DNA of 64,000 bases from Luteolibacter ambystomatis (GTDB taxonomy: Bacteria > Verrucomicrobiota > Verrucomicrobiia > Verrucomicrobiales > Akkermansiaceae): contig NZ_CP073100.1 of the NCBI RefSeq assembly GCF_018137965.1, positions 3,979,754 through 4,043,753 of the forward strand, given 5' to 3'. Positions 5,008 to 30,891 of this stretch are shown in pieces. Under the pieces are notes generated by a model, which worked only from the letters and a program-made list of their open reading frames with translations, made no database searches and was not told the DNA's origin. Position 1 is the stretch's first letter, and each line of letters opens with the position of its first letter. A program made the translations under genes and the position numbers.

Positions 5008-5011
5008 TCCC

Positions 5012-5548: not shown

Positions 5549-5565
5549 GGGATCGGGAGGAAACT

Positions 5566-7110: not shown

Positions 7111-7134
7111 GGGAAGGGACGGTGGGGGTGAGCA

Positions 7135-8247: not shown

Positions 8248-8265
8248 GAGAGAGGAAAGGAAACG

Positions 8266-9033: not shown

Positions 9034-9067
9034 GGGGACAGTTTGTGGCGTGGGGGAAAGAAAAGAT

Positions 9068-10893: not shown

Positions 10894-10905
10894 CCGGGAA
10901 AAGAT

Positions 10906-11301: not shown

Positions 11302-11308
11302 GGTTCGA

Positions 11309-12916: not shown

Positions 12917-12949
12917 GATGGCTGCGTCGCGATCGACGCGTGATGGAGC

Positions 12950-13645
12950 TCAACGCCCCGCAATCCGCTTCAACTTCTTCGGCACCTTGCCGAGGCCGAA
13001 CCACAATTTTGCAACCATCCCGTAACGCCGGATGGCGCGCATCTCGCGGAACTGCTGGATCTTCTGGCCGATGCCATCCTTCCCTGCGGTGTAATTCGCG
13101 TGATAGATCCGGATGTTGTCCGGCGCGGGCCAGCCGTGGGTGCGGGCGTAGTATTCGAGAGGCAGCGTGCCCCAGGAAACTTTCGCGCCCTCGCGGAGCA
13201 TGTCATTGACCACCGCCTGCTCGTTCTTGCCAGGATCGGCGGCGAGGCGTGCGCCCACTTCGCGGAAGAAATCCGCCATCGCGGGCGAGGCACGGCAGAC
13301 GATGAAGCCGGTGTTCACCTCCGTGGTCTTCGGGCCTTCAGCTTGGAAGAGCACTTCCTTGCCGGAGGCTTCGTAGATGGCTTTGAGATCAGCCGCAGTG
13401 CTTTCGAGGTAGATGATGTCCACATCGCTCCACAGGATCACCTGGCCGTCGTTCTCCTCCATGCTGCGGACGATCAAATCGATCTTCCGGCGGATGCATT
13501 CCATGAACTCCTTGCTGTAGAAGTCCCCCGCGCCCTTGAGATCGAGAAGCGTTGACCGGACCTCGAAGTCGGAAGGCAGCGAGGGCTGGAAGTAGCCCGA
13601 GAACAGGATCTCGTGCGCCGGAGTGAAGCAGCAGAAGACTTTCAT
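12950..13645 (-). CDS. GT77-like nucleotide-diphospho-sugar transferase
   Basis: A 231-residue protein with the compact GT-A layout of the DUF/GT77 nucleotide-diphospho-sugar transferase group: an acidic metal site WSDVDIIY near residue 72, then VNTGFIVCR and NEQAVVNDML further on. It starts a new stretch of the operon after a 91-base gap that contains a hairpin. A role in adding a pentose or galactose is typical of the family, but not shown here. Confidence 0.7.
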   Translation of the reverse strand: MKVFCCFTPAHEILFSGYFQPSLPSDFEVRSTLLDLKGAGDFYSKEFMECIRRKIDLIVRSMEENDGQVILWSDVDIIYLESTAADLKAIYEASGKEVLFQAEGPKTTEVNTGFIVCRASPAMADFFREVGARLAADPGKNEQAVVNDMLREGAKVSWGTLPLEYYARTHGWPAPDNIRIYHANYTAGKDGIGQKIQQFREMRAIRRYGMVAKLWFGLGKVPKKLKRIAGR

Positions 13646-13710
13646 CGGCGGCGGTGTGGAATGATCGCCCGAAGCACTTTCGCTCCGGGCGATCGGAAGA
13701 TTTGAAGAAC

Positions 13711-13729
13711 GGGACAGAAATGTCCCTAC
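13711..13729 (-). repeat. REP-like single palindrome with GTAG head
   Basis: On the minus strand the sequence is GTAG followed by GGACA-TTTC-TGTCC, a short perfect hairpin with a four-base loop. It starts seven bases after the cysN stop codon. There is no T-run after it, so it is a poor intrinsic terminator. The GTAG head plus palindrome is the layout described for REP sequences mobilised by REP-associated tyrosine transposases. Confidence 0.55.
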
Positions 13730-13736
13730 TCCTTGA

Positions 13737-14981: not shown

Positions 14982-14983
14982 GA

Positions 14984-15020
14984 GAGTCTAATGTCTGAAA
15001 GTCGAAGGTCTGAAAGTCGG
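14984..15020. repeat. Inverted repeat, cysN-side arm of the four-helix-bundle element
   Basis: About 30 bases built from GTCTGAAAGTCGAA followed by GGTCTGAAAGTCGGAA. The reverse complement of the arm at 15411-15445 matches it at 27 of 30 positions. It lies immediately before the cysN start codon. Confidence 0.75.
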
Positions 15021-15026
15021 AAGAGC

Positions 15027-15389
15027 TCAGCGGCGGAGGTGCTTGGCCAGGGATTCGATTCCCCTGCTGAGTTGCTCACTGAAGGATCGGATGGAGGAAG
15101 CCGTGTCGGTAGAAAGATAGCGCCTGTCTTCGGCCAGATAGAGCATGCTGCGGACTTCACCGTTCGATCCTTTTGCCAGATCGAGGAACCGGGCGAAATC
15201 CGCGTCGGTTCTGCGTTCGAAGCCCTCTGCGATATTGTTCATGACAGAAACACCAGCGCGTTGGATTTGATCCCGAAAGCCGAAGTCCCGCGCGGCAACC
15301 GAATCCGGACCGAATGCATCGTAGATCTGATTGGCGAGCACTCGCGCGTCCTGCCAGATTCTGAGGTCTTCAAATCGTTGTGCCGTCAT
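15027..15389 (-). CDS. Four-helix-bundle protein (23S rRNA IVP-like)
   Basis: A 120-residue helical protein of the family named for proteins in 23S rRNA intervening sequences: FEDLRIWQDARVLANQIY at the start, FRDQIQRAGVSVMNNIAEGFER in the middle and a helical tail. Members assemble as pentameric four-helix bundles of unknown function. It splits cysD from cysN, which are normally adjacent, and is bounded by inverted repeats on both sides. This looks like a small mobile cassette that inserted into the sulfate operon without a transposase gene of its own. Confidence 0.9.
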   Translation of the reverse strand: MTAQRFEDLRIWQDARVLANQIYDAFGPDSVAARDFGFRDQIQRAGVSVMNNIAEGFERRTDADFARFLDLAKGSNGEVRSMLYLAEDRRYLSTDTASSIRSFSEQLSRGIESLAKHLRR

Positions 15390-15410
15390 ATCAGGTGTTT
15401 GCTTCTGACT

Positions 15411-15445
15411 TTTAGACCTTCGACTTTAAGACCTTCAGACCTCTT
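15411..15445. repeat. Inverted repeat, cysD-side arm of the four-helix-bundle element
   Basis: Carries GACTTTTAGACCTTCGAC followed by TTTAAGACCTTCAGACC, the inverted partner of the arm at 14984-15020. It ends at the cysD stop codon (15445-15447). A related pair occurs at 20171-20272. Confidence 0.75.
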
Positions 15446-16350
15446 CAGAAGTATCCTTCCTTCTTCCGGTCTTCCATGGAGGTTTCGGAACGCTTGTCGT
15501 CGGCGCGGTTGCCGCGCTCGGTCTGGCGGGCGGCGGCAACTTCGTCGATGATCTGGTCGAGCGTCACGGCATCGGACTCGATCGCGCCGGTGATGGTGGC
15601 GTCACCCATCGTGCGGAAGCGGATCTGCTTGTGCTCGACGGTCTCGCCTTCGCGCGGCTGGACGAATTCGGAGATCGCGAGGATCGCACCGTTGCGGACA
15701 AGCGTGTCACGCGAGTGGGCGAAGTAGAGCGAAGGCAGCGGGATATTCTCGCGCTTGATATACATCCAGATGTCCATCTCGGTGAAGTTGGACAGCGGGA
15801 AGACGCGGAAGTGCTCGCCGGAGTTCTTGCGGCCGTTGAAGAGGTTCCAGAGCTCGGGGCGCTGGTTCTTCGGGTCCCACTGGCCGAAGTCATCGCGGTG
15901 GGAAAAGAAGCGCTCCTTGGCGCGGGCCTTCTCCTCGTCGCGGCGGCCGCCGCCGAGGCAGGCATCGAACTGGTGGTGCTCGATGGTGTCGAGCAGGGTC
16001 ACCGTCTGGAGGGCATTGCGGGAAGCGTTCGGGCCCTTTTCCTCGACCACGCGGCCGGTGTCGATGGACTCCTGCACGGAGCCGACGACCAGACGCGCAC
16101 CGATCATCTCCACGAACTCATCGCGGTAAACCATCGTCTCCGGGAAATTGTGGCCGGTATCGATGTGGACCAGCGGGAACGGCATGCGGGCCGGCCAGAA
16201 CGCCTTGCGGGCGAGCCAGGCCATCACGATCGAGTCCTTGCCGCCGGAGAAAAGAAGCGCCGGATTCTGGAACTGCGCCGCGGTTTCGCGGAGCACGAAA
16301 ATCGCCTCGGCTTCGATCTGGTCGAGGTGGGAAAGTTGGTAGTTGGGCAC
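15445..16350 (-). CDS. cysD: Sulfate adenylyltransferase subunit 2
   Basis: Catalytic subunit of ATP sulfurylase, a PP-loop enzyme that joins sulfate to ATP with energy from CysN. The PP-loop SGGKDS lies at residues 35-40 and the C-terminus ends in the typical KKEGYF. The GTG at 16350 gives 301 residues, the length of E. coli CysD, and starts directly before YQLSHLDQIEAE; a TTG at 16389 is an alternative. It follows cysC after about 125 bases. PAPS made by CysDNC inside a polysaccharide locus points to glycan sulfation, though assimilation is also possible. Confidence 0.93.
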   Translation of the reverse strand: MPNYQLSHLDQIEAEAIFVLRETAAQFQNPALLFSGGKDSIVMAWLARKAFWPARMPFPLVHIDTGHNFPETMVYRDEFVEMIGARLVVGSVQESIDTGRVVEEKGPNASRNALQTVTLLDTIEHHQFDACLGGGRRDEEKARAKERFFSHRDDFGQWDPKNQRPELWNLFNGRKNSGEHFRVFPLSNFTEMDIWMYIKRENIPLPSLYFAHSRDTLVRNGAILAISEFVQPREGETVEHKQIRFRTMGDATITGAIESDAVTLDQIIDEVAAARQTERGNRADDKRSETSMEDRKKEGYF

Positions 16351-16474
16351 GGGAAGAGAGGACTTCGGTGGATGGGAGCCTGGACTCAACGACCGGACTC
16401 ATGCGCTGAAAGCGCCGCGCGGAGGTAATGAGACGGCAGCGGCACCGCAAGCAATAATTACCAAATTTACCATT

Positions 16475-17083
16475 TCACTCAGGAATAGCCGGAGAAATCC
16501 GGCCCCGGACGGCGTCCAAAAGGGCGGCGGCGACCTCCGCCACCGTGGTGCTTTCAGTATCAAGGAGAAGGTCCGGCTTCTCCGGGACCTCGAAGGAGCT
16601 GTCCCGGCCGGTGAAATTCGGAATCTCACCCTTGGCGGCCTTCGCGTAGAGACCTTTCACATCGCGCTGGGCGCAGGCTTCGAAACTCGCCTGGACATAA
16701 ACCTCGAAGAAATCCTCCCCGACGATACCGCGGGCCAGGCCCCGAAGGGCAGCACGGGGGGTGATAACGGACACGAAGGTGATGATCCCGTTCGCGGCGA
16801 AAACCTTGGCGGTTTCCGAGACGCGGCGGACGTTTTCGAGCCGGTCCTCATCGGAGAAGCCGAGGTTCGCGTTCAGCCCGGAGCGGAGGTTGTCGCCATC
16901 GAGGATGACGGTGAAGCGGCCTTCCTCATGCAGCGCGCGCTCGGCGGCGTTCGCGATGGTGGACTTCCCGGAGCCGGAGAGGCCGTACATCCAGATCACG
17001 AGTCCGCGCTGGCCGAGCAGGGTTTCCTTGTCCTGGCGGTTGAGGAAGCGGTGGAACTCGGTGTGGATGTTGGTGGCGGCCAT
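16475..17083 (-). CDS. cysC: Adenylylsulfate kinase
   Basis: Phosphorylates adenylyl sulfate to PAPS, the donor for sulfotransferases. The Walker A loop GLSGSGKST is at residues 34-42, followed by LDGDNLRSGLN and the FTGRDSSFEVP region for APS binding. The start at 17083 gives 202 residues and the usual N-terminus (TEFHRFLNRQ). It lies between a nucleotidyltransferase/kinase fusion gene and cysD, on the operon strand. No sulfotransferase was recognised within the window. Confidence 0.94.
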   Translation of the reverse strand: MAATNIHTEFHRFLNRQDKETLLGQRGLVIWMYGLSGSGKSTIANAAERALHEEGRFTVILDGDNLRSGLNANLGFSDEDRLENVRRVSETAKVFAANGIITFVSVITPRAALRGLARGIVGEDFFEVYVQASFEACAQRDVKGLYAKAAKGEIPNFTGRDSSFEVPEKPDLLLDTESTTVAEVAAALLDAVRGRISPAIPE

Positions 17084-17112
17084 GTGGGAAAGTGAAGAGG
17101 GCGGCGGAGAGG

Positions 17113-18195
17113 TCAACTGCGGCAAAACGGTTCGACCGCACGGTAATCGGGAAGGGCGTTCACCGCCGCATCGCGGTGGGTGGAGTTGCTGAACAGCACC
17201 ACCGCATAGCCACCATGGCCGCCGCCGCAGTACTTCGCGGCGAGGGCTCCGGCGGGCAGGTCGAGCGCGTCCATGCCTTCGCCGAGTTGGGCGCGGTAGG
17301 AAGCGCGCACGGATTCCGCGAGCAGGGCGAGATCGCCGAGCTTTACCGCCGCCCGGGCGATGGCACCGGCGCGAGCAATGGCTTCGAAGTCACGGTCGAG
17401 CGCGGCGATGCCAGGCGTGTCATGCGGCTTGCCGGTCCAGAGGAGCGCCATGCAGCCATTCAGAAATTCGCCGCGGGTCTTGAGCTCCAACACCGGTCGT
17501 GGACCGGATTGCCAGATGCACAACCCTGTCTCACGGATCACCGCCGGGTCCTGCCAGCCGACACCGAGATCGATCTCCGATTGGCATCCATCGTGACCAT
17601 TGAGCAAGGCCCATGCGCCGCTGCCACCAAGACCCGCGTTTTTTTCGTAGGGCCATGAACGCAGCGACACCAGCGGTGAGATCGCCATGTTGACGATCCA
17701 GGTACCAGGCTGGGCGTAACGCGGGACATCGAGCCAGCCACCGGCGAAATCAACACGCAGGGGAGCTTCCTCCGGTGCGCGCATCAGGCGGGCAATCGAC
17801 GAGGAACTGACATCGCCATTCCCGGCCGCAGACTTGCCGAGCACCACCAGACGGCAACCGGTTTCATCACAAAGCCGCGATTTCGAGGAGTGATAAGGAT
17901 CTCCTTCATTGATGACCAGCACCTGCGGTTGGACGCGGCGGAAGTGCTGTTCGAAATCGAGTCCGAGTTCACCGCCCTCTCCCAACACCACTTCATCCAC
18001 CATCCGCAGCGAGCCGATCAGCTCCTGCTTGTGATCGTCCGGAATGGAGGGCTTTCGCTGCTTGTGCCGCCACAGCGATTCCGCGGACGCCACCGACACG
18101 GTGAGGTGATCACCATGGGCACGCGCATCTTCGAAGAAGCGCAGATGCCCCGCGTGGAGAACATCGAAACAACCGCTGACAAATACCTTCACCAT
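17113..18195 (-). CDS. Cytidylyltransferase-like / GHMP-kinase-like fusion (copy 1)
   Basis: A 360-residue fusion. Residues 1 to about 135 form a TagD/RfaE-type nucleotidyltransferase with the HxGH site (His14, His17 in DVLHAGHLRFF) and an SSSS turn near 130. Residues from about 145 on show GHMP-kinase-like motifs: FAGGWLD, GLGGSGAW near 188-194 and a C-terminal CGGGHGGYAVV. This couples phosphorylation and activation of one sugar, like HldE in logic but with a different kinase fold and reversed order. A paralog lies two genes upstream, with a WecG-type gene between them. Confidence 0.8.
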   Translation of the reverse strand: MVKVFVSGCFDVLHAGHLRFFEDARAHGDHLTVSVASAESLWRHKQRKPSIPDDHKQELIGSLRMVDEVVLGEGGELGLDFEQHFRRVQPQVLVINEGDPYHSSKSRLCDETGCRLVVLGKSAAGNGDVSSSSIARLMRAPEEAPLRVDFAGGWLDVPRYAQPGTWIVNMAISPLVSLRSWPYEKNAGLGGSGAWALLNGHDGCQSEIDLGVGWQDPAVIRETGLCIWQSGPRPVLELKTRGEFLNGCMALLWTGKPHDTPGIAALDRDFEAIARAGAIARAAVKLGDLALLAESVRASYRAQLGEGMDALDLPAGALAAKYCGGGHGGYAVVLFSNSTHRDAAVNALPDYRAVEPFCRS

Positions 18196-18202
18196 CGGGG
18201 TG

Positions 18203-19009
18203 TCAGTCCATCGGGTAAGCCTTCACGCCGCTCAACTGCGCGAGCACTCCGGCAAGGAAGCGCGGATTGTTCCGCAGGTAGCGTTTCCAAAGCCGCTTCG
18301 GATCCATGAACAGGCGGAACAGCCATTCGAAGCCGCTGCCACGGATCCACTTCGGAGCTTCCTTCACGAGGCCCGCCTGGAAATCGAAAGCCGCACCGAC
18401 GCCGAAGAACAACAGTCCCTGGTCATCGGAGCGCAGGGCCTCGGCATGACGTTCGAGGAAGCCCGCCATGAAGCGTTCCTGCTTCGGCGTGCTGAGTCCC
18501 ACCCAAAAGTAATGGGGCTTGCTGGCGCGGATCGCCGCGACCAATTCGAGCTCTTCCTCATTCGTCAGCGGACGGAACGGTGGTGTGATCGTGCCCGCGA
18601 TGCGGAGCTTAGGATGCCGTTCCTTGAGCACGGAGGACAAGCGTTCCACCACACCATCTCCCCCACCCCACAGAAAATGGCGGCGGTCTTTTTCAAGTCC
18701 GCGCTCCAGCAAGGCGGGCATGAACTCCGGACCGCAGACCTGCTCCATGTCCGGACTGCCTTGCAGGCGGCCCATCCACACCATCGGGATGCCGTCCGGG
18801 ATCGAGAGATAGCTGCGGTTGTGGATGCGCTTGAGCGCCGGATCTTCCTGCGACTCGATCACGCCATGAACACCGGTGACGGTGACGTAGCCGAGCACGC
18901 CGGGAGTGTCCGCCGCGTTCTCGACCTCGTTCAAGGCCGAGCCCATGGTGACATCACTGATGCCGACACCGAGGACATTCGCGCGGGGAATGGTAGAGGA
19001 GGACAACAT
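18203..19009 (-). CDS. WecG/TagA/CpsF family glycosyltransferase (GT26)
   Basis: A 268-residue GT26 transferase that typically adds a ManNAc-type or glucuronic residue to a lipid-linked first sugar. The family signatures are clear: YVTVTGVHGVIESQ near the start, IPDGIPMVWMGR, LWGGGDGVVERL, FWVGLSTPKQERFM and GVGAAFDF, ending with the RNNPRFLAGVL helix. It sits 7-8 bases from each of the two flanking fusion genes, so the three are almost surely translated from one message. Confidence 0.9.
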   Translation of the reverse strand: MLSSSTIPRANVLGVGISDVTMGSALNEVENAADTPGVLGYVTVTGVHGVIESQEDPALKRIHNRSYLSIPDGIPMVWMGRLQGSPDMEQVCGPEFMPALLERGLEKDRRHFLWGGGDGVVERLSSVLKERHPKLRIAGTITPPFRPLTNEEELELVAAIRASKPHYFWVGLSTPKQERFMAGFLERHAEALRSDDQGLLFFGVGAAFDFQAGLVKEAPKWIRGSGFEWLFRLFMDPKRLWKRYLRNNPRFLAGVLAQLSGVKAYPMD

Positions 19010-19017
19010 GCCGCGAT

Positions 19018-20160
19018 TCAGAAATTGAGGGATGGCAGGCGGATGCGCAGTGGCACCGCGTCCGCAACGGGAGTCTCCGAAACAATCATCAGATAACCGC
19101 CGCCACAGCCGGAGAAACAGGAACCGAGCGAGCCCTTCGCGAGTCGCTCGCGGATCGGCAGCAGATCATCCGGCACCGTCGCGGGCAGAAGCGCTCTCCA
19201 GCTTTCGAGCGTTTCATCGAGTGCCTTCCCAAGACCGGCCGCATCGCGTGCGAGGATCGAGTCCCATGCCAGATGTCCCGCATCGGCGAGACGACGCGCA
19301 AAGGCCGGGTCGAGATGCTTTTCCACCAGGGGGTCGTAGCCTTCACCACGCTCACCAACCGGCACCAGATGCAACACGGACTGCAACCATTCCACGATGG
19401 CAGGATCGGTGCAGCGCTCGATGTGTTCCGGCCAATAGCCGCCCGCGTAGTCAAGGCGATTGATGCCCGGCAGCACGAATCCCAGCGCGTCCTGCGAGCC
19501 GGAGACGTATTGCGTGCCCGGAGGATTCTCAAACGCAAACAGCACCTTGGCCTGATGCTCCAGACGCGTGTCCGGCATGCGCTGGCCCCAAAGGATCTCC
19601 GCACTCCTGCGGCTGCTGGTCGCCATGCCCGCGCGATCCATGAACGCGATGGTCGGTTCCAACTGCGCCACCACCACCGGACCCGCCGCGAGTTCCGAGA
19701 CCCACGGTTGATCCAGCCAACCGCCCGCGATGCAAACGCGGTAAGGTAGTGCGGTGCGGCTTTTCGAATCGGTGCTGCTGCGCGCGGGAAAGTTCTCCGC
19801 CGGGATGCGGTCGAGCACGTGATACTCGATGCCTTTCTCGCGGCAGAGCGCCTCCTTGTCCGGCGTGTGACCGTCGTGATTCACCACAAACACATCCGGG
19901 CGGATGACATCGATGTCCGGTGCGAAGTCGAGCATGCCCCAGCCGGCGGAAACGCGTGCTTCATGAACACAAGCGAGCTTGCTCAGCAGATACACGCGCT
20001 CGTCCTGTGAGAACAGCGGCGGGCGGCCCTTGAGGTTCTCGACATTCGCATCCGAACCCACCCGCACATGCAGCCGCCCGAACTTCGCCGCCTCTTCCAG
20101 GAACGCGATATGCCCCGCGTGGAGCAGATCGTAGCAGCCGGAGACGAGGACGGTTTTCAT
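19018..20160 (-). CDS. Cytidylyltransferase-like / GHMP-kinase-like fusion (copy 2)
   Basis: A 380-residue paralog of the fusion at 17113-18195. The nucleotidyltransferase site HAGH is at residues 14-17, and GHMP-like motifs follow: CIAGGWLD (143-150), GSQDALGFVLPG and a late SGCGGGYLMIV. The two copies differ enough in the middle section to act on different substrates. The gene starts next to a repeat-filled 112-base gap that separates it from the GDP-mannose 3,5-epimerase-like gene. Function is inferred; the kinase glycine loops are less canonical than in copy 1. Confidence 0.78.
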   Translation of the reverse strand: MKTVLVSGCYDLLHAGHIAFLEEAAKFGRLHVRVGSDANVENLKGRPPLFSQDERVYLLSKLACVHEARVSAGWGMLDFAPDIDVIRPDVFVVNHDGHTPDKEALCREKGIEYHVLDRIPAENFPARSSTDSKSRTALPYRVCIAGGWLDQPWVSELAAGPVVVAQLEPTIAFMDRAGMATSSRRSAEILWGQRMPDTRLEHQAKVLFAFENPPGTQYVSGSQDALGFVLPGINRLDYAGGYWPEHIERCTDPAIVEWLQSVLHLVPVGERGEGYDPLVEKHLDPAFARRLADAGHLAWDSILARDAAGLGKALDETLESWRALLPATVPDDLLPIRERLAKGSLGSCFSGCGGGYLMIVSETPVADAVPLRIRLPSLNF

Positions 20161-20170
20161 GATTCGGAAA

Positions 20171-20272
20171 GAGTCTGAAAGTCCAAAGGCCGAAGGTCGG
20201 AGCCAGTCCGGCTGGTGCCGGGTCTTCTTTCTCTTACGACTTTAAGACTTTCGACCTTCAGACCTGCGACTC
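20171..20272. repeat. Degenerate inverted repeat related to the cysDN insert
   Basis: The left arm begins GAGTCTGAAAGTCCAAAGG and the right arm reads CGACTTTAAGACTTTCGACC. They face each other about 40 bases apart and resemble the arms flanking the gene at 15027-15389. No gene lies between them, so this may be a solo or emptied copy. It fills nearly the whole gap at 20161-20272. Confidence 0.6.
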
Positions 20273-21271
20273 TTATTGAACGACAGCTTCGCCGCGCTTG
20301 CGCTTCTCGTGCTGCTCCTTGATCCACCAGTAGGTCTTCTCCAGGCCGGTCTTCAGGTCGATGCCCGGCTCCCAGCCGAGGACTTCCTTGATGAGAGTGT
20401 TGTCGGAGTTGCGGCCACGCACACCCTGCGGCGCATCGAGCTTGTACTTCCGCTTCATCTTCACACCGGCGATGCCTTCGATGATGTCGAGGGTCTGGTT
20501 GATGGAAACCAGTTCGCTGCGACCGAGGTTGAGCGGATCCGAGTAGGAAGAGGCCATCAGCCTATCGATGCCGGTGATGCAGTCGTCGATGAACATGAAC
20601 GAGCGGGTCTGCTCGCCATCCCCCCAGATCTCGACTTCCATCGTGCCGTTGTCGATCGCCTCGATCACCTTGCGGCAGAGCGCGGCGGGAGCCTTCTCGC
20701 GACCACCATCCCAGGTGCCCTTCGGGCCATAGACGTTGTGGAAGCGGAACACACGGACGTTCATGCCGTAGTCCTGCTCGAAGTGCTTGCACAGGCGCTC
20801 GGAGAAAAGCTTCTCCCAGCCGTAGCCGTCTTCCGGCATCGCCGGATAGGCGTCGGATTCCTTCAGTGCCACCACTTCGGCGTCTTCCTGGCGATAGTCC
20901 GGATAGGCGCAGGCGGAGGAGGAGTAGAAGTAAGCCTTCGCACCCTGGTCCTTCGCAGCCATCAGCAGGTGGGTGCTGAGCAACACGCTGAGCATGCACA
21001 GGGCCTTGTTCTTCGTGATGAAGCCCATGCCACCCATGTTGCAGGCGAGGTTGTAGACTTCGTCACAACCTTCCGCGGCGCGGTAACAGTTGGCCTTCTC
21101 TTCCAAGTCCATCACCAGGTTCTCGGCCTGCGGATGGAGCTGGTACCATTTGTCGAGCGGCTTGATGTCAGCCACCACAACCTGGTGGCCGCGCTCGATG
21201 AGGACGCGGGCGAGTTCGCCGCCGATGAAGCCGCCGCCGCCGGCGACGAGGATGCGTTTGCTAGTGCTCAT
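20273..21271 (-). CDS. GDP-mannose 3,5-epimerase-like SDR
   Basis: A 332-residue extended SDR closely resembling plant and bacterial GDP-mannose 3,5-epimerase, which makes GDP-L-galactose or GDP-L-gulose. Recognisable segments are CNMGGMGFIT, SSSACAYP, the catalytic YGWEK, RFHNVYGPKGTW with GGREKAPAALCRK, and GVRGRNSDN near the C-terminus. The ATG at 21271 starts directly before the Rossmann strand. It follows gmd and fcl, so all three draw on GDP-mannose. Other C3/C5 epimerases share part of this pattern. Confidence 0.87.
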   Translation of the reverse strand: MSTSKRILVAGGGGFIGGELARVLIERGHQVVVADIKPLDKWYQLHPQAENLVMDLEEKANCYRAAEGCDEVYNLACNMGGMGFITKNKALCMLSVLLSTHLLMAAKDQGAKAYFYSSSACAYPDYRQEDAEVVALKESDAYPAMPEDGYGWEKLFSERLCKHFEQDYGMNVRVFRFHNVYGPKGTWDGGREKAPAALCRKVIEAIDNGTMEVEIWGDGEQTRSFMFIDDCITGIDRLMASSYSDPLNLGRSELVSINQTLDIIEGIAGVKMKRKYKLDAPQGVRGRNSDNTLIKEVLGWEPGIDLKTGLEKTYWWIKEQHEKRKRGEAVVQ

Positions 21272-21306
21272 GTGGGTGGGGGTAGTTTGAGAGTTTGGAA
21301 ATGAAA

Positions 21307-22341
21307 TCAACGGGTGGCCGCGAGCTCCTTGCCCGCGGCGGTGGCCACCGCCCGTTCCTGACGGGCGAGTTCGAGATCGGCCTCGGTCATGATCTTCACC
21401 AGATCCTTGAAACGGACCCGCGGCTCCCAGCCGAGCTGGCGCTTGGCCTTGGCCGGATCACCGATGAGAAGATCCACCTCGGCGGGGCGTTCGTAACGCT
21501 GGTCGTAGTCGACGTATTGCTCCCAATCGAGACCGAGCAGACCGAAGGCCTCCTGCACGAATTCCTTCACGGAGTGGGTCTCATTGGTGGCGACCACGTA
21601 ATCGTCCGGCGTGTCCTGCTGGAGCATCAGCCACATCATCTCGACGTATTCCTTGGCGTAGCCCCAGTCGCGCTTCGCATCGAGATTGCCGAGGAAAAGC
21701 TTGTCCTGCAGGCCCATCTTGATGCGGCCCGCAGCACGGGTGATCTTGCGGGTGACAAAGGTTTCGCCACGGCGCGGCGACTCGTGGTTGAAGAGGATGC
21801 CACTGCAACCGAAGAGTCCGTAGGACTCGCGGTAGTTCACCGTGAGCCAGTGCGAATAGACCTTCGCACAGGCATACGGCGAGCGCGGCCACAGCGGAGT
21901 CGTCTCCGTCTGCGGCACTTCCTGCACCTTGCCGTACATCTCGGAGGATGAGGCCTGGTAGAAGCGGACCTTTTCGATCAGGCCGGTCTGGCGGATCGCC
22001 TCCAACAGACGCTGCGTGCCGAGGCCGGTGACATCACCGGTGTATTCCGGAGCATCGAACGAAACGCGCACGTGGGACTGCGCCGCGAGGTTGTAAACTT
22101 CGTCCGGGCGGATTTCGCAAAGCAGCTTCGCAAGGTTGGTGCCGTCCGCGAGGTCACCGTAGTGCAGGAACAGGCGTTTGTCGCTGCGATGGGGATCCTG
22201 ATAAATGTGATCGATGCGGTCGGTGTTAAAGGTGGACGCACGGCGGATGATGCCGTGGACTTCGTAGCCTTTTTCCAAAAGGAACTCCGCGAGGTAGGAG
22301 CCGTCCTGACCGGTGATGCCGGTGATGAGCGCGCGTTTCAT
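21307..22341 (-). CDS. gmd: GDP-mannose 4,6-dehydratase
   Basis: Converts GDP-mannose to GDP-4-keto-6-deoxymannose, the first step to GDP-L-fucose. At 344 residues it has the standard N-terminus [19 protein letters not shown], then [15 protein letters not shown], the catalytic SSSEMYG and YACAK, and the [16 protein letters not shown] segment unique to Gmd. It directly precedes the GDP-mannose 3,5-epimerase-like gene in transcription order and follows fcl. Confidence 0.97.
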
Positions 22342-22367
22342 GGGGATGGGTGCAATGGCAATGGTGG

Positions 22368-23300
22368 TCAGAGACGCGCGGCCGCGGTGCCGAGCGTGGA
22401 GAGGAAGTCCTGATAGGCGGCGGCGAGGCCTTCGCGCAGGGCGATGGTCGGCTGCCAGCCGGTGGCGCGGATCTTCGAAATATCGAGCAGCTTGCGCGGC
22501 GTGCCGTCCGGCTTGGTGGGATCGGTGAGGATCTCGCCGGTAAAGCCACTGGTTTCCGCAACCAGCGTGGCGAGTTCGAGAATGGTGATGTCCTCGCCGG
22601 TGCCGACGTTCACCCAGTCCGGCGGATTGTCCTGCTCCAGCAGATGCAGGCAGGCGGCAGCGAGATCATCGACGTGCAGGAACTCGCGGCGCGGCGTGCC
22701 GGTGCCCCAGATGGTGACGGAGGCATCGCCGCGTTCCTTAGCTTCATGGAAGCGGCGCAGCAGCGCGGGGATCACGTGGGAATTCTCGGCATGGTAGTTG
22801 TCGCCCGGACCGTAGAGGTTCGTCGGCATCGCGCTGTGATACAGCAGGCCGTGTTGCGCGCGGTAGTGCTGGCAGAGCTTCAGGCCCGCGATCTTGGCAA
22901 TGGCGTAGGCTTCGTTGGTCGGTTCGAGCGGCGAGGTCAGCAGGCAGTCCTCGGTCATCGGCTGTGGAGCCTGCTTCGGATAGATGCAGGAGCTGCCGAG
23001 GAAAAGCACGCGCGGCACACCGGCACGGCGGCTGCCCTCGATAAGATTCATCTCGATCCCAAGGTTCTCGTAGATGAAATCCGCCGGATAGGTCGCATTG
23101 GCATGGATACCGCCGACCTTGGCCGCGGCGATCACCACCACGTCCGGCTTCTTGTCCGACAGCCAATCGAAGACCGCACGCTGGTCGAGCAGGTCCAGCT
23201 CGGCACGCGTGGCGGTGAGCACCTCGTAACCGTCCGCAGATCGCACCAGTGCGGAGCCAACCATGCCGCGATCACCGGCGATGAAGAGTTTTGGTTTCAT
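22368..23300 (-). CDS. fcl: GDP-L-fucose synthase
   Basis: A bifunctional epimerase/reductase (WcaG type) completing GDP-L-fucose synthesis. The NADP-binding [22 protein letters not shown], catalytic YAIAK and the [10 protein letters not shown] segment are all family hallmarks. The ATG at 23300 gives 310 residues; an upstream TTG is less likely. It lies 26 bases from gmd and five bases after a glycosyltransferase gene. The product would be a donor for a fucosyltransferase in the same operon. Confidence 0.96.
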
Positions 23301-23305
23301 TCCAA

Positions 23306-24418
23306 TCAAGGAGCCTCGCAGGCTTCCACCAGAACCGTGCGCATGGCGTCGAGGTGGGCGGAGAGCGTCAGACGTTGTTCGTAGATGTCGCGTCCTCTTG
23401 CTCCCATGCGGTTCCGCAGGTCCGGGTTTGCGGCGAGTTCAACGAGGCGATCCGCGAGGGCATCCGTGTCATGTGGCTGGACCAGGAAGCCGGAGCCGCC
23501 CTCCTCCACAATCGAAGGAGCACCGCGCCAGGCATATGCGGCCACCGGCAATCCACAGGCCATCGCTTCGATCAGCACGAGAGGGAAATTTTCCGCACGA
23601 TAGTAAGACGGAAATCCGAACACATCCGCACCGGCAAAGGCCTGCCACTTGTCATCGCCATAGGCCGGAGCGGGAGGATCGATGGTGAGATTCGCAGGGA
23701 GGTCCGCGACGAGCGCTTCGAATTTCGCGCGGGTGCCTTCATCCGGCCATTTGCCGACCAGTCTCAAGCGCACCGAACGGTCGATGCGTGCCGCAGCGGA
23801 CTTGCAAGCGGTGACCAGATCGAGCACGCCCTTGTCTTCATAAAGATTGCCGACGAACAGGACCTGGAAGGCATCGCCCTCGCGGTTCTCAGCGGGCAGA
23901 GGAGAAACATCGAGACCGTTGGCGATTTCGAACTCGCGTTCCGCGCCGAAGTCTTTTCCCGGCACCGCCGCGTGTTTCGAAAGGCAGACCGCCCAGGCAC
24001 CACGGCCGTAGATCCAGCGCCCGAGGAAGCTTTTCAGCGGGCTGGCGTTGAGGAATTCAGGAAGACCGCCGGAGTGGTAGTGCAGCACCGTGCGGCGGAA
24101 CAGCGGACGACAGAGACCGAGGAAGATCACATCGCGGACGAAGGGCACCATCGCCGCGCTACCAGGAGTGTAGTAGAGAACACGGGCACCGGATTTGAAC
24201 CGGAGGCGGAAGCCGCGGGCGACGATGGAGATCAGACCGAGGCCTTTTTTCAGCGAAGCCTTGCCGACTTCGCCGAGCTCATTGCTGGAGCGGATCTCGA
24301 GGAGAGCCTTCTCAAGCGGCGCGAGATCCGCATCGAACAGCGCGCGGGTGGCGAGCGATTGGCCGTGGACGGGTGGGGGCACCACACCGGCCATCAGGAT
24401 CTTGTGGCATGCCGCCAT
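23306..24418 (-). CDS. Glycosyltransferase family 4
   Basis: A 370-residue GT-B retaining transferase. The N-terminal loop is [13 protein letters not shown]; the C-terminal domain has [47 protein letters not shown] with the donor-binding glutamates, and [12 protein letters not shown]. The ATG at 24418 is chosen; a GTG at 24436 is also possible. Its position beside fcl makes a fucosyl or related donor plausible, but this cannot be read from the sequence. Confidence 0.87.
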
Positions 24419-24448
24419 CGCTGGGAATACCGGCACGCCGGCGGGAAA

Positions 24449-25555
24449 TCAGGAAGCGAACGCGGCGACGGCCAGCGCGACTTCATCGAGCTGCGCCTGG
24501 ACCAGCTCCGGATAGACCGGGATGCTGAGCACTTCACGCGACAGCGCTTCGGAGACAGGGCAATCGCTGGCAGGCAGATCGGCGAAGCACTCCTGCTGGT
24601 GCAACGGCACCGGGTAGTAGATCTCGCAGCCGATGCCGCGCTCGGCGAGGTGCTGCTTGAAGGCATCGCGGCGGCCTTCACCCGCGATGCGCAATGTGAA
24701 CTGGTTCCAGACGTGGCCGCGGTTTTCGAGGGCTGCCGGAGCCTTGCAACCTTCCGGCAGCGGCAGGTTCGCGGCATACCACGCGGCATTGCGTGCACGG
24801 CCTTCCGCGTAGGAATCAAGATGGCGCAGCTTCACCCGCAACAGCGCGCACTGGAGCGCATCCATGCGGAAGTTTCCGCCGACCATCTGATGATAGTAGC
24901 GCGGATGCATGCCGTGGTTGCGGAGCTTGAGGATCTTTTCCGCGAGCGCGTCGTTGTTGGTGGTGACGAGACCGCCATCACCGAAGCCGCCGAGATTCTT
25001 CGAAGGGAAAAAGCTGAAGCAGGCGACCTCGCCGAAGTTGCCGCACTGAACGCCCTTGAAAGTCGCGCCGATCGACTGCGCGGCGTCCTCGATGACGATC
25101 AGCTTGTGCTCGTCCGCGAAGGCGCGGATGGCATCCATGTCGCAGCACTGGCCGAAAAGATGCACCGGCATGATCGCCTTCGTCTTCGGTGTGATGAGCT
25201 TCGCGGCGGCGGCGAGGTCGATGGTGAAATCATCCTCACGGACATCGCAGAACACCGGCACGGCACCACTGCGCGAGATGCACCCGGCGGTGGCAAAGAA
25301 GGTGAACGACGGACACAGCACTTCATCGCCTGCGCCAATCTCCAGGGCCATCAGCGCCACCAGGATCGCGTCCGTGCCGGAGGAAATCGAGATCGCGTGC
25401 TTCGCGCCGATGTACTGCGCGCACTCGCGTTCGAAGGCCTCGACTTCCTCGCCGAGAATGAAGCGGCCGGTGGCGAGGACCTTCGCGAACACGTCCTTCA
25501 GCTCGGCTTCGAGCGGACGGTTCTGCGCGTTGACGTCTAAAAGTGGAACGGACAT
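24449..25555 (-). CDS. DegT/DnrJ/EryC1 sugar aminotransferase
   Basis: A PLP-dependent aminotransferase of 368 residues that would convert a keto sugar nucleotide to an amino sugar. SSGTDAILVAL binds the phosphate, EDAAQSIGA holds the cofactor aspartate and SFFPSKNLGGFGDGG contains the PLP lysine (Lys186). It is preceded by a WbpA-like dehydrogenase gene, the pairing seen for 3-amino uronic acids (WbpE type), though the oxidase and acetyltransferase of that route are not in view. Confidence 0.9.
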   Translation of the reverse strand: MSVPLLDVNAQNRPLEAELKDVFAKVLATGRFILGEEVEAFERECAQYIGAKHAISISSGTDAILVALMALEIGAGDEVLCPSFTFFATAGCISRSGAVPVFCDVREDDFTIDLAAAAKLITPKTKAIMPVHLFGQCCDMDAIRAFADEHKLIVIEDAAQSIGATFKGVQCGNFGEVACFSFFPSKNLGGFGDGGLVTTNNDALAEKILKLRNHGMHPRYYHQMVGGNFRMDALQCALLRVKLRHLDSYAEGRARNAAWYAANLPLPEGCKAPAALENRGHVWNQFTLRIAGEGRRDAFKQHLAERGIGCEIYYPVPLHQQECFADLPASDCPVSEALSREVLSIPVYPELVQAQLDEVALAVAAFAS

Positions 25556-25561
25556 GGGAAA

Positions 25562-26878
25562 TCAGGCTTTCACGACCTGCCCTTCGCGCGTCGCGACGGC
25601 GGCCATGGCATTGCGGGTATCGACGATCAGATCGGCGGAAGCAGCAAGCTCATCCAAATTGAACGCCGCGTGGTTCGTCGAGATCACCACGCAGTCATAC
25701 GAACCGAGTACTTCCTTCGACCAGGCGACGGACTCCTTGCCCGCCCAGTTCATGTGCTCACGGGTCTTTCCGACGACCGGCACATGCGGGTCGTGGAAAT
25801 CCACCTGTGCGCCGAGTTCGAGGAAACGGTCCATCAGCTCGAAGGTCGGCGACTCGCGCATGTCATCGACGTTCGCCTTGTAGGCGAGGCCGAGCAGCAG
25901 CACGCGGCTGCCTTTCACCGCCTTGCCACGGGAATTGAGAGCCTCCATCGCACGATGGATCACGTACTTCGGCATCGAGCGGTTGATCTCGCCAGCCAGC
26001 TCGATGAAGCGGGTGTGTACGCCGTATTCGCGGGCTTTCCACGTCAGGTAGAACGGGTCGATCGGGATGCAATGGCCGCCGAGGCCGGGGCCGGGATAGA
26101 AAGGCGTGAAGCCGAAGGGCTTGGTCGAGGCAGCGCGGATCACCTCCCAAATGTCGATGTCCATCGCATCGGCGGCGACTTTCAGTTCGTTGACGAGGCC
26201 GATGTTCACCGCGCGGAAGATGTTCTCCAACAGCTTGGTCAACTCGGCCACCTTGCAGGAGCTGACCGGCACGACCTGTTCGAAAGCGGCGCTGTAGAGT
26301 GCCACGCCCGCATCGAGGCAGGCCGGAGTGATGCCGCCCACCACCTTCGGGATGTTGGTGGCGGAGAACTTCGGATTGCCCGGGTCCTCGCGCTCCGGCG
26401 AATAGACGACGAAGAGATTGGTGCCGACCTTGAAACCCGCGGCCTCCACCCGCGTCACCACTTCCTCATCGGTGGTGCCGGGATAAGTGGTGCTTTCCAA
26501 GCTGATCGCCTGGCCTTCGCGCAGGTGCGGGACCACGGATTCCAGCGTGTCCGTCACGTAGCTCAGATCCGGCTCGAAGTGGTGGTCGAGCGGAGTCGGC
26601 ACGCAGAGGATGATCGCATCGCACTCGGAGACGCGGCGGAAATCGGTGGTGGCATCCAGCGTTCCTGCGGCGCGCGCTTCTTCGACATGCTCGCCCGGGA
26701 TGTGCTTGATGTAGCTCTCGCCGCGATGGAGGGCCTCCGGTTTCTTCGGATCAATGTCGAAGCCGACGGCCTTGAATCCGGCGCGGGCGTAGGCGAGCAC
26801 GAGCGGCAGGCCGACGTAACCGAGGCCGACGACGCCGACGACGGCGGTTTTGGCGGAAAGTTTCTGCTGGAGATTCAT
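25562..26878 (-). CDS. Nucleotide-sugar dehydrogenase (WbpA/UDP-GlcNAc type)
   Basis: Oxidises the C6 of a UDP-sugar to a uronic acid with two NAD molecules. The 438-residue protein has the N-terminal [21 protein letters not shown], and the catalytic [13 protein letters not shown] with Cys270. GESYIKHIP near residue 53 favours the WbpA/WbpO group over plain UDP-glucose dehydrogenase. Its ATG overlaps the stop of the mutase gene before it (ATGA). Its product could feed both the DegT enzyme and, if UDP-glucose is accepted, the xylose synthase. Confidence 0.9.
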
Positions 26879-28053
26879 GCGCGTTCGCGGACGCCGAAGC
26901 GTTCGAGGAGCTTGGCGGCTTCGGTCAGGGCCATGCCGGTGACCTGGTCCATGTTGTAATAGCGGTAGGTGGCGAGCCGGCCGGTGAAGGTGGTGTTCTC
27001 CTCCCCGGCGGCGAGTGCCGCGTAGCGCTGGTAGAGTTCCTTCGCATCGGCGGCGGGGACGGGATAAAACGGTTCATCCCCCGGAGTCCACGCTTTTGGA
27101 AACTCCCGCACGATGGTGGTGGCGTCCGTCTGCTGGCCGGTGGCGTGCTTGATCTCCACGATGCGGGTGAAGGGCACGTCCGCCTCCGGGTAGTTCACCT
27201 GCATCGCGGGCTGCCAGAAGCCCTGCTTGCCGGAGATCGCCTCGCGTTCCACCAGCTCGTCCGCCGTGAAGCTCTCATGCTCGAAGCGCAGCGAGCGGTA
27301 GGGCAGCGGACCGTAGCAGCGGTCGAAGTATTCGTCGATCGGGCCGGTGTAAACGAGATGCGTGTAGCTCCAGCGGTTCTTCGCTTCCTCGAAATCCACG
27401 CCGAGGTGGAGTTCCGCACCGGGCGAGGATTCCAGCATGCGCTGGAACATGGCGGTGTAACCTTCACGCGGCAGGGCTTGGAATTCCTCGCGCAGATAGC
27501 GGTCATCGCGGTTGGTGCGGATCGGGATGCGCCCGCAGACGGAGGGATCGAGATCCCGCGGGTGGCGCTGCCATTGCTTGAGCGTGTAGCCCTCGAAGAA
27601 CAGCTCGTAGAGATCGCGGCCGACCTGGGAGATGATGACCTCCTCGGAGTTCGCGGGCTTGTCGATCTTCTCGCGGTGCTCCTCCAGCCAGGTCTCGAAC
27701 TCCGCCGTGGTGGCCGGGCGGCCGATCCATTCCTCGAAAGTGTTGAGGTTGATCGGAAAGCTCCAGTAGCGCCCGGCGGCGTGGCTCTTGATCGTATAGT
27801 CGACCGGATGCCAGTCGGTGAAGCGGCTGAGGTAGCCGACGATCCGCGGCGAGTTCGTCCGGAAATAGTGCGGGCCGTAGGGATGGATCAGCACGCCCGC
27901 CTCGTCCTTGCGATCATAGGCATTGCCGCCGAAGTGATCGCGCTTGTCCACGATCACGCATTTCCAGCCCGCGTTCGAGAGCTGCTCGGCCATCACCAGC
28001 CCGGAGAATCCGGCGCCGACGATGAGAAAATCGATGTGGGTTTTGTCCGCCAC
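26875..28053 (-). CDS. glf: UDP-galactopyranose mutase
   Basis: A flavoenzyme interconverting UDP-galactopyranose and UDP-galactofuranose. The 392-residue protein has [17 protein letters not shown] and FGGNAYD for FAD binding, [10 protein letters not shown] for the active-site pocket, [15 protein letters not shown] and [14 protein letters not shown]. The GTG at 28053 starts directly before the Rossmann strand and seven bases after the preceding stop; an upstream frame extension is rejected. It implies galactofuranose, or a related furanose, in the polymer. Confidence 0.92.
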
Positions 28054-28060: not shown

Positions 28061-29032
<972 letters not shown>

Positions 29033-29052: not shown

Positions 29053-29064
29053 CACGCTGCCGCC
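29053..29064 (-). promoter_or_regulatory. ops-like element in operon leader
   Basis: On the minus strand the sequence is GGCGGCAGCGTG, one base different from the enterobacterial ops element GGCGGTAGCGTG that recruits RfaH. It lies 21-32 bases upstream of the first codon of the operon and just after a hairpin. A NusG/RfaH-like gene is encoded within 1.3 kb. Recognition by that protein is inference. Confidence 0.4.
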
Positions 29065-29182
29065 CTTGGTCGATCTTTTGCTCTTCGCAAAAGAAACCTG
29101 GGGCGCGGACTCAGGGAATGGACGGCTGCCGCTCCACTCGGAAAGGCGTTGGTCACCGACATCCACGGGCAATTCCGGACTT

Positions 29183-29207
29183 TGTTCAACAAAAAATGAA
29201 CAAACCC
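29183..29207. promoter_or_regulatory. Palindromic operator candidate, copy A
   Basis: TGTTCAA-N7-TGAACAAACCC, an inverted repeat about 150 bases upstream of the operon's first gene. It shares all 18 fixed bases and the spacer length with copy B at 30867-30891. Confidence 0.6.
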
Positions 29208-29312
29208 AGCCACGCGATCGGGGAGGCTGAAAGGAGGAGGAAAAACCGGACACCCGAGACCCGCTCCGGATTTATTTGGCCAGTGGAAGCTGATTTCCTA
29301 TCCCTACCGCGG

Positions 29313-29405
29313 ATGTCACGGCTCACCCTATTCCTCCCTTTGATGGCTTTGGCGCTTGGCGGTTGCGGATTGGCCCCGAGCGGACCAGCGGAACGCAGTC
29401 ACTGA
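29313..29405 (+). CDS. Very small lipoprotein (30 residues)
   Basis: An ATG at 29313 opens a 30-codon frame encoding a hydrophobic signal ([15 protein letters not shown]) with a lipobox LGGC, followed by [12 protein letters not shown]. The lipobox and the CGL start of the mature part recall LptM/YifL-type micro-lipoproteins of Gram-negative cells, but the mature part is only 13 residues. It is encoded divergently from the polysaccharide operon and ends 19 bases before the phosphatase-like gene. Too short for a firm call. Confidence 0.5.
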
Positions 29406-29424
29406 AAGCTCGCATCCACATCCA

Positions 29425-29745
29425 ATGCTCCACGTTTTGTTCATTTGCAGCCGCAACCGCTGGCGGAGTCCGACAGCCGAAGCGGTCTTCGCAGATCATC
29501 CGGGGATCGAATGCGCGTCAGCCGGTCTCAGCCGGGACGCGGAGAATCGCCTCGATTCCGAAACCGTAAAGTGGGCGGATTTGATTTTCGTCATGGAGCG
29601 CCATCATAAAGCCAAGCTCTCTTCCCAGTTCCGCAAAGAGCTGACGGAAAAGCGGGTCGTGTGCCTCGGCATTCCGGACCACTACCCGTTCATGGATCCA
29701 CGGCTGGTGGAGATCCTGAAAACGAAGGTCGGGAAACTGCTATAA
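29425..29745 (+). CDS. Low-molecular-weight tyrosine phosphatase-like protein
   Basis: A 106-residue protein with the P-loop C8-SRNRW-R14-S that fits the CX5R(S/T) phosphatase signature, and a late PDHYPFMDP segment carrying the general acid aspartate, as in the small predicted tyrosine phosphatases of COG4551. ATG 29425 starts directly before the first strand; the longer frame is not used. It is encoded divergently from the polysaccharide operon. A link to polysaccharide control is possible only by position. Confidence 0.8.
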   Translation: MLHVLFICSRNRWRSPTAEAVFADHPGIECASAGLSRDAENRLDSETVKWADLIFVMERHHKAKLSSQFRKELTEKRVVCLGIPDHYPFMDPRLVEILKTKVGKLL

Positions 29746-29783
29746 TAGGATAGCCGGGGCGGGAAACCGGGATGACCAATCGT

Positions 29784-30326
29784 TCACGGCCTTGGCTTCC
29801 GCGGCATCAGGATCGCGAACAGATCCAGATCCACCACCTGCTCCTGACCAAGGAACTCCAGAAGAACCTTCACGCGCTCCGGAGCTGGAGCCACCGATAC
29901 CACCGTACCTTTCATCCCCCGCAGCGGACCGGTGGCGACCTCCACTTCCTCTCCCTCCTCGATCACCGGGGCCACGGTCAGGACATCCCCTTCCGAGGTA
30001 TCCCGCTCCGTGATCTCCGCCTGCAGCAGATCGACAAAACCCTGCGGCACCGGTGGAATCTGCCCGCCAAAGCGCACCAATCCCCGCACGCCCTGGCTGA
30101 AAGTCACCGCGCGCTCCAAGGCGGCGAGATCGAACTTCGCCAACAGGTAGCCCGGAAACAGCGGCTCGACCCACCAGATTTTCCCTCGGCGGGTGGCCTT
30201 GCGGTAGCGCAGGCGGGGGCAGAATACCTCCACCCCCTCCAATTCGCGCAGGTGTCCGGCGGCGATGTGCTCGCGCTTCGTCTGGGTGCGCACGCAGTAC
30301 CAAGCGCTGTGCCCGGCCCCGCTCAT
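29784..30326 (-). CDS. NusG paralog, RfaH/UpxY-like antitermination factor
   Basis: A 180-residue NusG-type protein. The N-terminal NGN domain begins AWYCVRTQTKREHIAAGHL and contains FPGYLLAKFDL; a KOW motif follows (VEVATGPLRGMKGTVV). It is distinct from housekeeping NusG by its context: it is translated with the GbsR-like regulator (ATGA overlap, 30323-30326) and lies next to a 29-kb polysaccharide operon, as RfaH, UpxY and LoaP do. Such factors load onto polymerase at a leader element and prevent early termination. Its target is inferred to be the operon at 29032. Confidence 0.85.
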   Translation of the reverse strand: MSGAGHSAWYCVRTQTKREHIAAGHLRELEGVEVFCPRLRYRKATRRGKIWWVEPLFPGYLLAKFDLAALERAVTFSQGVRGLVRFGGQIPPVPQGFVDLLQAEITERDTSEGDVLTVAPVIEEGEEVEVATGPLRGMKGTVVSVAPAPERVKVLLEFLGQEQVVDLDLFAILMPRKPRP

Positions 30327-30838
30327 TGCCCTAGGAGCCGTTGGATGAGAGGCAACATCACTCCTCCGCGCCGCAGCCAATTGTCCAACCGCTCGATCCG
30401 CTCCTCCAGAAACTCGCGCCGTTCGGGATCTTGCTCGCGGGCCGCGACCTCGGCCAGCTTGCCGATCTTCTGCTTCCCGCTCTCGATGTGGGGCCGGACC
30501 TGTTCGCGGATAAAGCCGCCCACCAGGCGCTTCAGCTCGACCGCCGGCTCGAAATAGGTGCGGCGTCCACCATTCAACTCCACCTCGCGGACCGCACCGA
30601 GCCCCTTCAAGGCCCGGAGCCCCTGGCTGGCGGATCCCTTGCTGATGTCAAGCCGCTCGACCAGATCGTCCAGCGCCAGCGGCACCGGGGAAATGAACAG
30701 CAACCCGTAGATTTCCCCGATCGAACGCGGCAATCCCAACACCTTCACCCCATCAACGAATACGTCCACGACGAGGCGCTCCAAGGGATCGAGCGATCCA
30801 GTGGAAGGGGCGTCGTCGCGCTCCGATGACTGCGGCAT
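30323..30838 (-). CDS. GbsR/MarR-family transcriptional regulator
   Basis: A 171-residue winged-helix regulator. GLPRSIGEIYGLLFIS and LDDLVERLDISKGSASQGLRALKG form the helix-turn-helix in the GbsR style, and GGRRTYFEP the wing; the C-terminal half is helical and likely dimerises. The ATG at 30838 is used in place of a TTG three codons upstream. A palindrome lies 29-53 bases upstream (copy B), and the same palindrome precedes the polysaccharide operon, suggesting autoregulation and operon control. Confidence 0.85.
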   Translation of the reverse strand: MPQSSERDDAPSTGSLDPLERLVVDVFVDGVKVLGLPRSIGEIYGLLFISPVPLALDDLVERLDISKGSASQGLRALKGLGAVREVELNGGRRTYFEPAVELKRLVGGFIREQVRPHIESGKQKIGKLAEVAAREQDPERREFLEERIERLDNWLRRGGVMLPLIQRLLGQ

Positions 30839-30866
30839 GTGGGCCAACTAGCCCACTCCACGCCAA

Positions 30867-30891
30867 TGTTCAAACTTTATTGAACAAACCC
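30867..30891. promoter_or_regulatory. Palindromic operator candidate, copy B
   Basis: TGTTCAA-N7-TGAACAAACCC just upstream of the GbsR-like gene; on that strand it contains TTGAAC, which would be followed after 17 bases by TAGTTG, a weak promoter candidate. It matches copy A at 29183-29207. Confidence 0.6.

Follow-up and report, generated by a model that had tools for sequence, protein, structure and literature searches.

A putative palindromic operator and an ops-like leader element at a Luteolibacter ambystomatis polysaccharide locus encoding a GbsR-type regulator and a NusG paralog

We analyzed a 64,000-nucleotide (nt) stretch of the Luteolibacter ambystomatis genome (Verrucomicrobiota; Akkermansiaceae; assembly GCF_018137965.1, contig NZ_CP073100.1, positions 3,979,754-4,043,753, forward strand), hereafter the window; the genome itself comprises 5.32 Mb in one contig. 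Within the window, a GbsR/Mj223-type regulator and a specialized NusG paralog are encoded by overlapping genes ahead of a long run of polysaccharide genes (Table 1). Two features of this locus are the subject of this report: a palindrome that stands before both transcription units, and a leader of the polysaccharide operon in which a hairpin is followed by a string closely resembling the ops element of Escherichia coli.

Table 1. Features of the regulator-NusG-polysaccharide locus, in window coordinates
Feature	Position	Strand	Remarks
Palindromic operator, regulator promoter	30866..30887	-	right half-site TTGAAC 30868-30873 at -35 position
-10-like element of regulator promoter, TAGTTG, weak	30845..30850	-	position from profile of 73 relatives; own copy a poor match
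GbsR/Mj223-type winged-helix regulator, 171 residues	30323..30838	-	PDB 1ku9 match
Specialized NusG paralog, 180 residues	29784..30326	-	ATG overlaps regulator stop codon by 4 bases
Palindromic operator, polysaccharide operon promoter	29182..29203	-	exact match; second copies before next transcription unit in relatives
Leader hairpin, GGTT-stem-loop-stem-AT-C-GACC	29068..29098	-	covariation in 60 relatives; within covariance-model match 29053-29108
ops-like element GGCGGCAGCGTG	29053..29064	-	11/12 bases as E. coli ops12
NAD-dependent sugar-nucleotide epimerase/dehydratase, first polysaccharide gene	28061..29032	-	Pfam Epimerase 159 bits, GDP_Man_Dehyd 154 bits
Gene run after first gene	4015..28053	-	UDP-galactopyranose mutase, nucleotide-sugar dehydrogenase, DegT aminotransferase, glycosyltransferases, GDP-fucose-type, sulfate-activation genes, others

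A palindrome shared by the regulator and the operon

The regulator matches PDB 1ku9 (MJ223) over residues 18-154 (E 3.2e-17), identifying it as a homolog of the Mj223 winged-helix protein. Its score against Pfam MarR_2 (23.8 bits, 5e-5) lies under the cut-off of 27, and its score against NCBIfam NF047500 (40.2 bits, cut-off 218) does not support assignment as a CudC-type choline regulator; the genome contains one more distant GbsR-like match besides (32%). The protein encoded downstream scores 48.6 bits against Pfam NusG (cut-off 22.2) and falls below the cut-offs for the RfaH equivalog (TIGR01955, 69.2 vs 144.5 bits), the UpxY subfamily (NF033644, 56.6 vs 100 bits) and LoaP (NF033641, 54.1 vs 125 bits). 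One other NusG-like match is found in the genome (30% over part of the query). In an AlphaFold2 model of the paralog, used to look for an RfaH-like autoinhibited, all-helical C-terminal domain, the C-terminal half is predicted with low confidence (predicted local distance difference test values mostly of 43-71).

The original prediction for this DNA had placed two copies of one palindrome at 29183-29207 and 30867-30891 (forward strand), one upstream of the regulator and the other upstream of the polysaccharide genes. Both copies are exact at these coordinates and lie where they were said to lie; the chance expectation for that motif in the window, at up to 3 mismatches, is 0.01 matches. Its trailing CCC did not hold up: relatives do not keep these bases next to the site of the regulator. 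A widened palindrome, TTGTTCA-N8-TGAACAA, fits the operon site exactly and the regulator site with one mismatch. Both transcription units are on the minus strand, where the palindromes are read in the direction of transcription, and the two sites end 27 bp ahead of the regulator ATG and 149 bp ahead of the first polysaccharide gene. At up to 1 mismatch these are the only copies of the palindrome in the genome (0 for the pattern read backwards). Allowing 2 mismatches raises the count to 6, compared with 3 for the control, and we treat the four additional places as background.

Conservation was assessed in 59 genomes, L. ambystomatis counted in, whose best protein-search matches gave 30 loci (set 1), and in 80 loci, the best of 482 in a named collection of Akkermansiaceae and other Verrucomicrobiota genomes, 593,592 bases in total (set 2); the two sets overlap in genomes and are not independent. 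A phylum-wide draw of 193 genomes supplied 29 further loci. At up to 2 mismatches the palindrome lies upstream of the regulator in 30/30 set-1 loci, the window's own included. Within 260 nt upstream of the regulator match it is present in 73/80 set-2 loci (38 of them exact, 18 differing at one position and 17 at two), compared with 0/80 for a control with the half-site reversed; over all set-2 sequence, 103 palindromes compare with 1 control match. Among the phylum-wide loci, 23/29 carry it, whereas shuffled half-sites averaged 0.04 and never exceeded 3. The original prediction had named occurrence of the motif at random genomic positions as a refuting result; this test does not refute it.

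In many relatives a second palindrome precedes the next transcription unit, its position being immediately behind either the NusG gene or a CysN-like gene. Further copies occur beside other genes, whose glmM-like, kdsA-like and (below) recA-like names, like that of the CysN-like gene and those of genes behind unlinked leaders, were assigned by eye without a family search. In two genomes an exact palindrome (L092 5038, L094 10907) is followed by a short membrane-protein gene and then a kdsA-like gene, and G003, G007 and G031 each have an additional exact copy ahead of a glmM-like gene (L082 3074, L084 1205, L089 5042). No close regulator was detected in G003 or G031, presumably because it is missing from these draft assemblies; each has, besides the exact copy at its glmM-like gene, an operon-type site and an ops-like leader. 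Four genomes of family f4 without a close regulator have seven listed palindrome places, none exact, all with one mismatch and with mixed spacers, which look like background. A tally of palindrome against regulator presence over the 59 genomes was dropped, as one mismatch yielded 84 places against 28 for the backward control.

We then considered the geometry of the 73 regulator promoters, chosen at up to 2 mismatches to the pattern and aligned on the palindrome. Positions 15-20 of the palindrome (TTGAAC) are invariant, although selection partly fixes five of these six positions. A 17-bp gap separates them from a TANNNT-like element (T 58%, A 67%, last T 49%), and in about half of the promoters an NTG start codon follows 6 nt past it. 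This layout reads as a sigma-70-type promoter in which the right half-site would serve as the -35 box, its message being nearly leaderless. A dimer bound at this site would cover the -35 box, which makes repression the preferred sign of control, and the arrangement suggests that the regulator represses both its own promoter and that of the operon.

A hairpin and an ops-like element in the operon leader

Downstream of the operon palindrome lies a conserved string, CGACCAAGGGCGGYAGCGTG, the last 12 bases of which are GGCGGCAGCGTG in the window. This differs by one base from GGCGGTAGCGTG, the E. coli ops12 oligonucleotide used in work on RfaH (PMC5995543), so that the leader carries an ops-like element as expected of an RfaH-type target operon. 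Within 600 nt after the NusG gene, an ops-like 20-mer occurs at up to 2 mismatches in 57/80 set-2 loci and at 5 mismatches in 6/80, and fifty shuffled 20-mer patterns gave 0/4000 trials at up to 3 mismatches. The 19-mer CGACCAAGGGCGGYAGCGT has a single, exact place in the genome, in the operon leader, whereas the backward control has two 2-mismatch places; the weight of this result lies in exactness and position, not in number. Over the 59 genomes, CGACCAAGGGCGGYAGCGT at up to 2 mismatches finds 162 places against 34 for the control.

Directly ahead of the ops-like element stands a hairpin of the form GGTT-stem-loop-stem-NN-GACC. We aligned 60 leaders, comprising the 57 that come within 2 mismatches of the 20-mer and a selection of three of the six at 5. 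Stem pairing is kept despite two-sided changes in 113 cells, compared with 45 in shuffles (above all 500); paired stem cells amount to 79.3% vs 68.9%, and the covariation score to 0.329 vs 0.157, each again above all 500 shuffles. Counting the stem pairs that show a double change separates the two less clearly (7 vs 5.6, reached by 45/500 shuffles). Sliding the register by -1 gives a close score of 0.313, with 28 vs 25 pair types, a closeness that we think comes partly from hairpins starting in slightly different columns. Searches against Rfam returned no family at threshold in the leader. Its JUMPstart family (RF01707) had no match in the window at 28950-31000 with E up to 5, in 16 loci at the gathering threshold, or at L153 4950-5250 with E up to 10.

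Within the ops-like element, G4, G5, A7 and G8 are invariant in the 60 leaders, rows that were selected for motif likeness; in E. coli, substituting these same bases abolishes RfaH recruitment (PMC5995543). The last base of GACC is 12 nt from ops C9 and 14 nt from T11. A distance of 12 nt between hairpin and RNA 3' end is near that of hairpin-stabilized pauses. In E. coli, the pause positions of polymerase in ops are C9 and U11 (PMC5995543).

A covariance model of hairpin plus ops, R1, was used to follow the leader further; the window was outside its training set, many sequences of which came from genomes of the set-1 type. At E up to 0.001, R1 has one match in the L. ambystomatis genome (29053-29108, 55.9 bits, E 3.6e-12). 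Matches occur in 47/59 genomes, L. ambystomatis included, and in 24/193 genomes of the phylum-wide draw, where 20/48 genomes with a close regulator (E <1e-30, L. ambystomatis included) have the leader vs 4/145 without (Fisher p 1.2e-10, uncorrected for kinship). The leader is absent from all 17 listed genomes of genus g18, in the same family. The NusG paralog is encoded directly downstream of the regulator in 80/80 set-2 loci. Where it is adjacent in the 29 phylum-wide loci, an ops-like string (up to 4 mismatches) follows in 14/15, and where it is not, such a string (up to 3 mismatches) comes after the regulator in 7/14; at the latter loci the paralog would act in trans. Three loci from other families (L255 1395-1449, L236 2176-2224, L254 2527-2585) have the regulator followed by a hairpin-ops leader with no adjacent NusG paralog.

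Leaders also occur away from the regulator. Seven of 22 unlinked leaders examined precede a polysaccharide-related gene (rmlA-, rmlB-, sugar-nucleotide dehydrogenase- and epimerase-like, and sugar-transferase-like in three cases); in the rest, the gene that follows is unclear, short or cut off. G018 carries 8 leaders and G026 carries 9. Three of those in G018 fall within 3.3 kb (L129, contig C7, at 5793, 7232 and 9031), each preceded at a distance of about 90 nt by a palindrome that is degenerate to a varying extent (5, 2 and 3 mismatches, respectively).

Proposed two-layer control and its alternatives

The locus probably encodes a two-layer circuit, with a shared repressor at initiation and a co-encoded NusG paralog in elongation. 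From the sites, spacing, gene order, conservation, hairpin covariation, ops-like core and co-occurrence seen in the sequence, we infer binding, repression, recruitment and antitermination, in the following order. The regulator is predicted to bind the 22-bp palindrome as a dimer, both at its own promoter and at that of the polysaccharide operon; bound over the -35 box it would most likely exclude RNA polymerase until some signal releases it. Its promoter would also yield the NusG paralog, so that the elongation factor would be present when the operon promoter is freed. Polymerase leaving that promoter would make the leader hairpin and at once meet the ops-like pause, where the paralog would load by recognizing, like RfaH, the non-template strand exposed there, and would then suppress termination along the long operon. 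The original prediction had called this a self-regulating switch: its placement of the two sites stands, but "switch" exceeds the evidence, as simple negative autoregulation gives a set-point. Its proposal of the NusG paralog as a second layer gains support from the ops-like element, which it had not included.

The system would work like RfaH-ops with a dedicated repressor placed in front, yet its protein fails the RfaH, UpxY and LoaP cut-offs. As in E. coli, a specialized NusG paralog accompanies a long polysaccharide operon whose leader has an ops-like element (11/12 bases identical) beside a stem-loop, and unlinked leaders occur too; unlike in E. coli, the gene for the paralog lies together with its operon and with the gene for a dedicated repressor-like protein, and the JUMPstart model finds no match. 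Bacteroides UpxY is likewise encoded at the start of a polysaccharide operon, presumably its own target (PMC7819879, PMC7593976), but the present system adds a partner DNA-binding regulator with a shared operator. The regulator is, like GbsR/OpuAR/CudC-type repressors, an Mj223-like winged-helix protein and differs in sitting with polysaccharide rather than osmolyte genes, GbsR-type regulators being described as osmolyte-gene repressors (PMC6207618). That paper reports no consistent neighborhood for one heterogeneous GbsR sub-group and for Bacteroidetes, and "Verrucomicrob" does not appear in its main text (PMC6207618). For RfaH, a distribution largely confined to Proteobacteria has been described (PMC7593976). 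In the open-access literature, we found no paper combining GbsR, NusG and exopolysaccharide and none pairing "ops element" with Verrucomicrobi, and broader queries gave, among the matches listed, nothing like the present system. These searches brought up no report of ops for Verrucomicrobiota. Here would be a NusG paralog family whose likely recruitment mark is legible in the leader, down to the bases that matter in E. coli, and initiation and elongation control would be joined through one transcription unit and one operator, with both layers open to standard reporters.

Several observations weigh against the circuit, and its weakest link is the reading of ops by the NusG paralog. In our count on an alignment of 20 paralogs with RfaH, which covered K10, H20 and R73 of the four ops-contacting residues of RfaH (R23 being the other), these are found unevenly (H20 in 15, K10 in 6, R73 in 2), so that the RfaH contact set is only partly retained; other conserved positions, R13, K17 and E19, along with H20, may contact the ops loop instead. 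T6 of ops is C in the window and C or T among leaders. No ops-like string follows the NusG gene in 17/80 loci (at least 7 mismatches), one of which ends at a contig end. The short core GGGCGGYAGCGTG, tried alone, is unspecific, with 3 exact places in the L. ambystomatis genome and, at 1 mismatch, 86 places vs 50 for the control. The palindrome is lacking before the regulator in 7/80 set-2 loci (L181, L185, L212, L222, L224, L225, L228), in 6/29 phylum-wide loci, and in L093, L094 and L095, of family f6, and L101, four loci of the same order; two of the genomes behind these four, G041 and G048, have an exact palindrome elsewhere, before a kdsA-like gene. Both window promoters, moreover, have poor -10 elements (TAGTTG and GTGGAT).

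A more ambitious form of the circuit, which we regard as conceivable but tentative, treats hairpin and ops as a composite loading dock, of which our literature searches gave no description. With polymerase at ops C9, 12 nt separate the base of the hairpin from the RNA 3' end, and the exit channel would be filled by the hairpin at the moment when the ops loop is exposed. The paralog, produced from a promoter under the same repressor, would read both, uniting LoaP-like and RfaH-like signals in a cassette (repressor, elongation factor, shared operator and composite leader) that would be an old polysaccharide control unit across Verrucomicrobiota. If true, this would explain for the lineage how a NusG paralog encoded with its operon is directed to that target.

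Recruitment could instead depend on the RNA hairpin alone, as for Bacillus LoaP, another NusG paralog, which requires a small leader hairpin (PMC12691694), with the ops-like string merely pausing polymerase. The covariation of the hairpin and the partial loss of RfaH contact residues fit this alternative, which we nevertheless hold to be unlikely: stem and loop vary in sequence, while the abutting ops-like string keeps its loop bases fixed, including those that in E. coli serve RfaH loading but not pausing. The sign of control might also be reversed, the regulator acting as an activator that aids polymerase at two promoters with weak -10 elements. We judge this rather improbable, given that the right half-site coincides with the -35 hexamer, at the usual 17 bp from the -10-like element, and would be masked by a bound dimer.

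The palindrome might also belong to another regulator, such as LexA, whose box in Verrucomicrobia reportedly has TGTTC/GAACA half-sites with N4 spacing and so resembles the half-sites seen here. A box of this type, TGTTC-N4-GAACA, does lie upstream of a recA-like gene in the L. ambystomatis genome, whereas the palindromes have N10 between TGTTC and GAACA, stand before the regulator in 73/80 loci and were not seen at recA; this spacing disfavors LexA, which we consider very unlikely as the binder. The recA-side box, TGTTCAACCGAACA, is at L112 1501-1514 (C1:4599062-4599075), about 45 bp before the gene. Finally, an origin of the palindrome and the leader as dispersed repeats or by chance matching is scarcely credible: G018 and G026 have many leaders, and only 7 of the 22 unlinked ones examined precede a nameable gene, but L. 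ambystomatis has one leader and two palindromes, and gene context is fixed, the hairpin covaries and controls are near zero.

The polysaccharide genes and their neighbors

The gene run that follows the epimerase gene would form one transcript. Three of its open reading frames (4015-5148, 9068-10231 and 11309-12916) have no Pfam match at 1e-5. Minus-strand segments at 13737-17125 and 21307-23309 contain GTP_EFTU/CysN-like, PAPS_reduct/CysD-like, APS kinase and GDP-mannose dehydratase/GDP-fucose synthase-like genes, a content that would fit a polymer carrying sulfate and perhaps fucose. The NusG paralog gene is separated from the operon by a low-molecular-weight phosphotyrosine phosphatase-like gene (29425-29745, plus strand), divergent from the operon across the latter's operator; at L074, the closest fetched relative with the same gene order, the operator directly follows the NusG gene.
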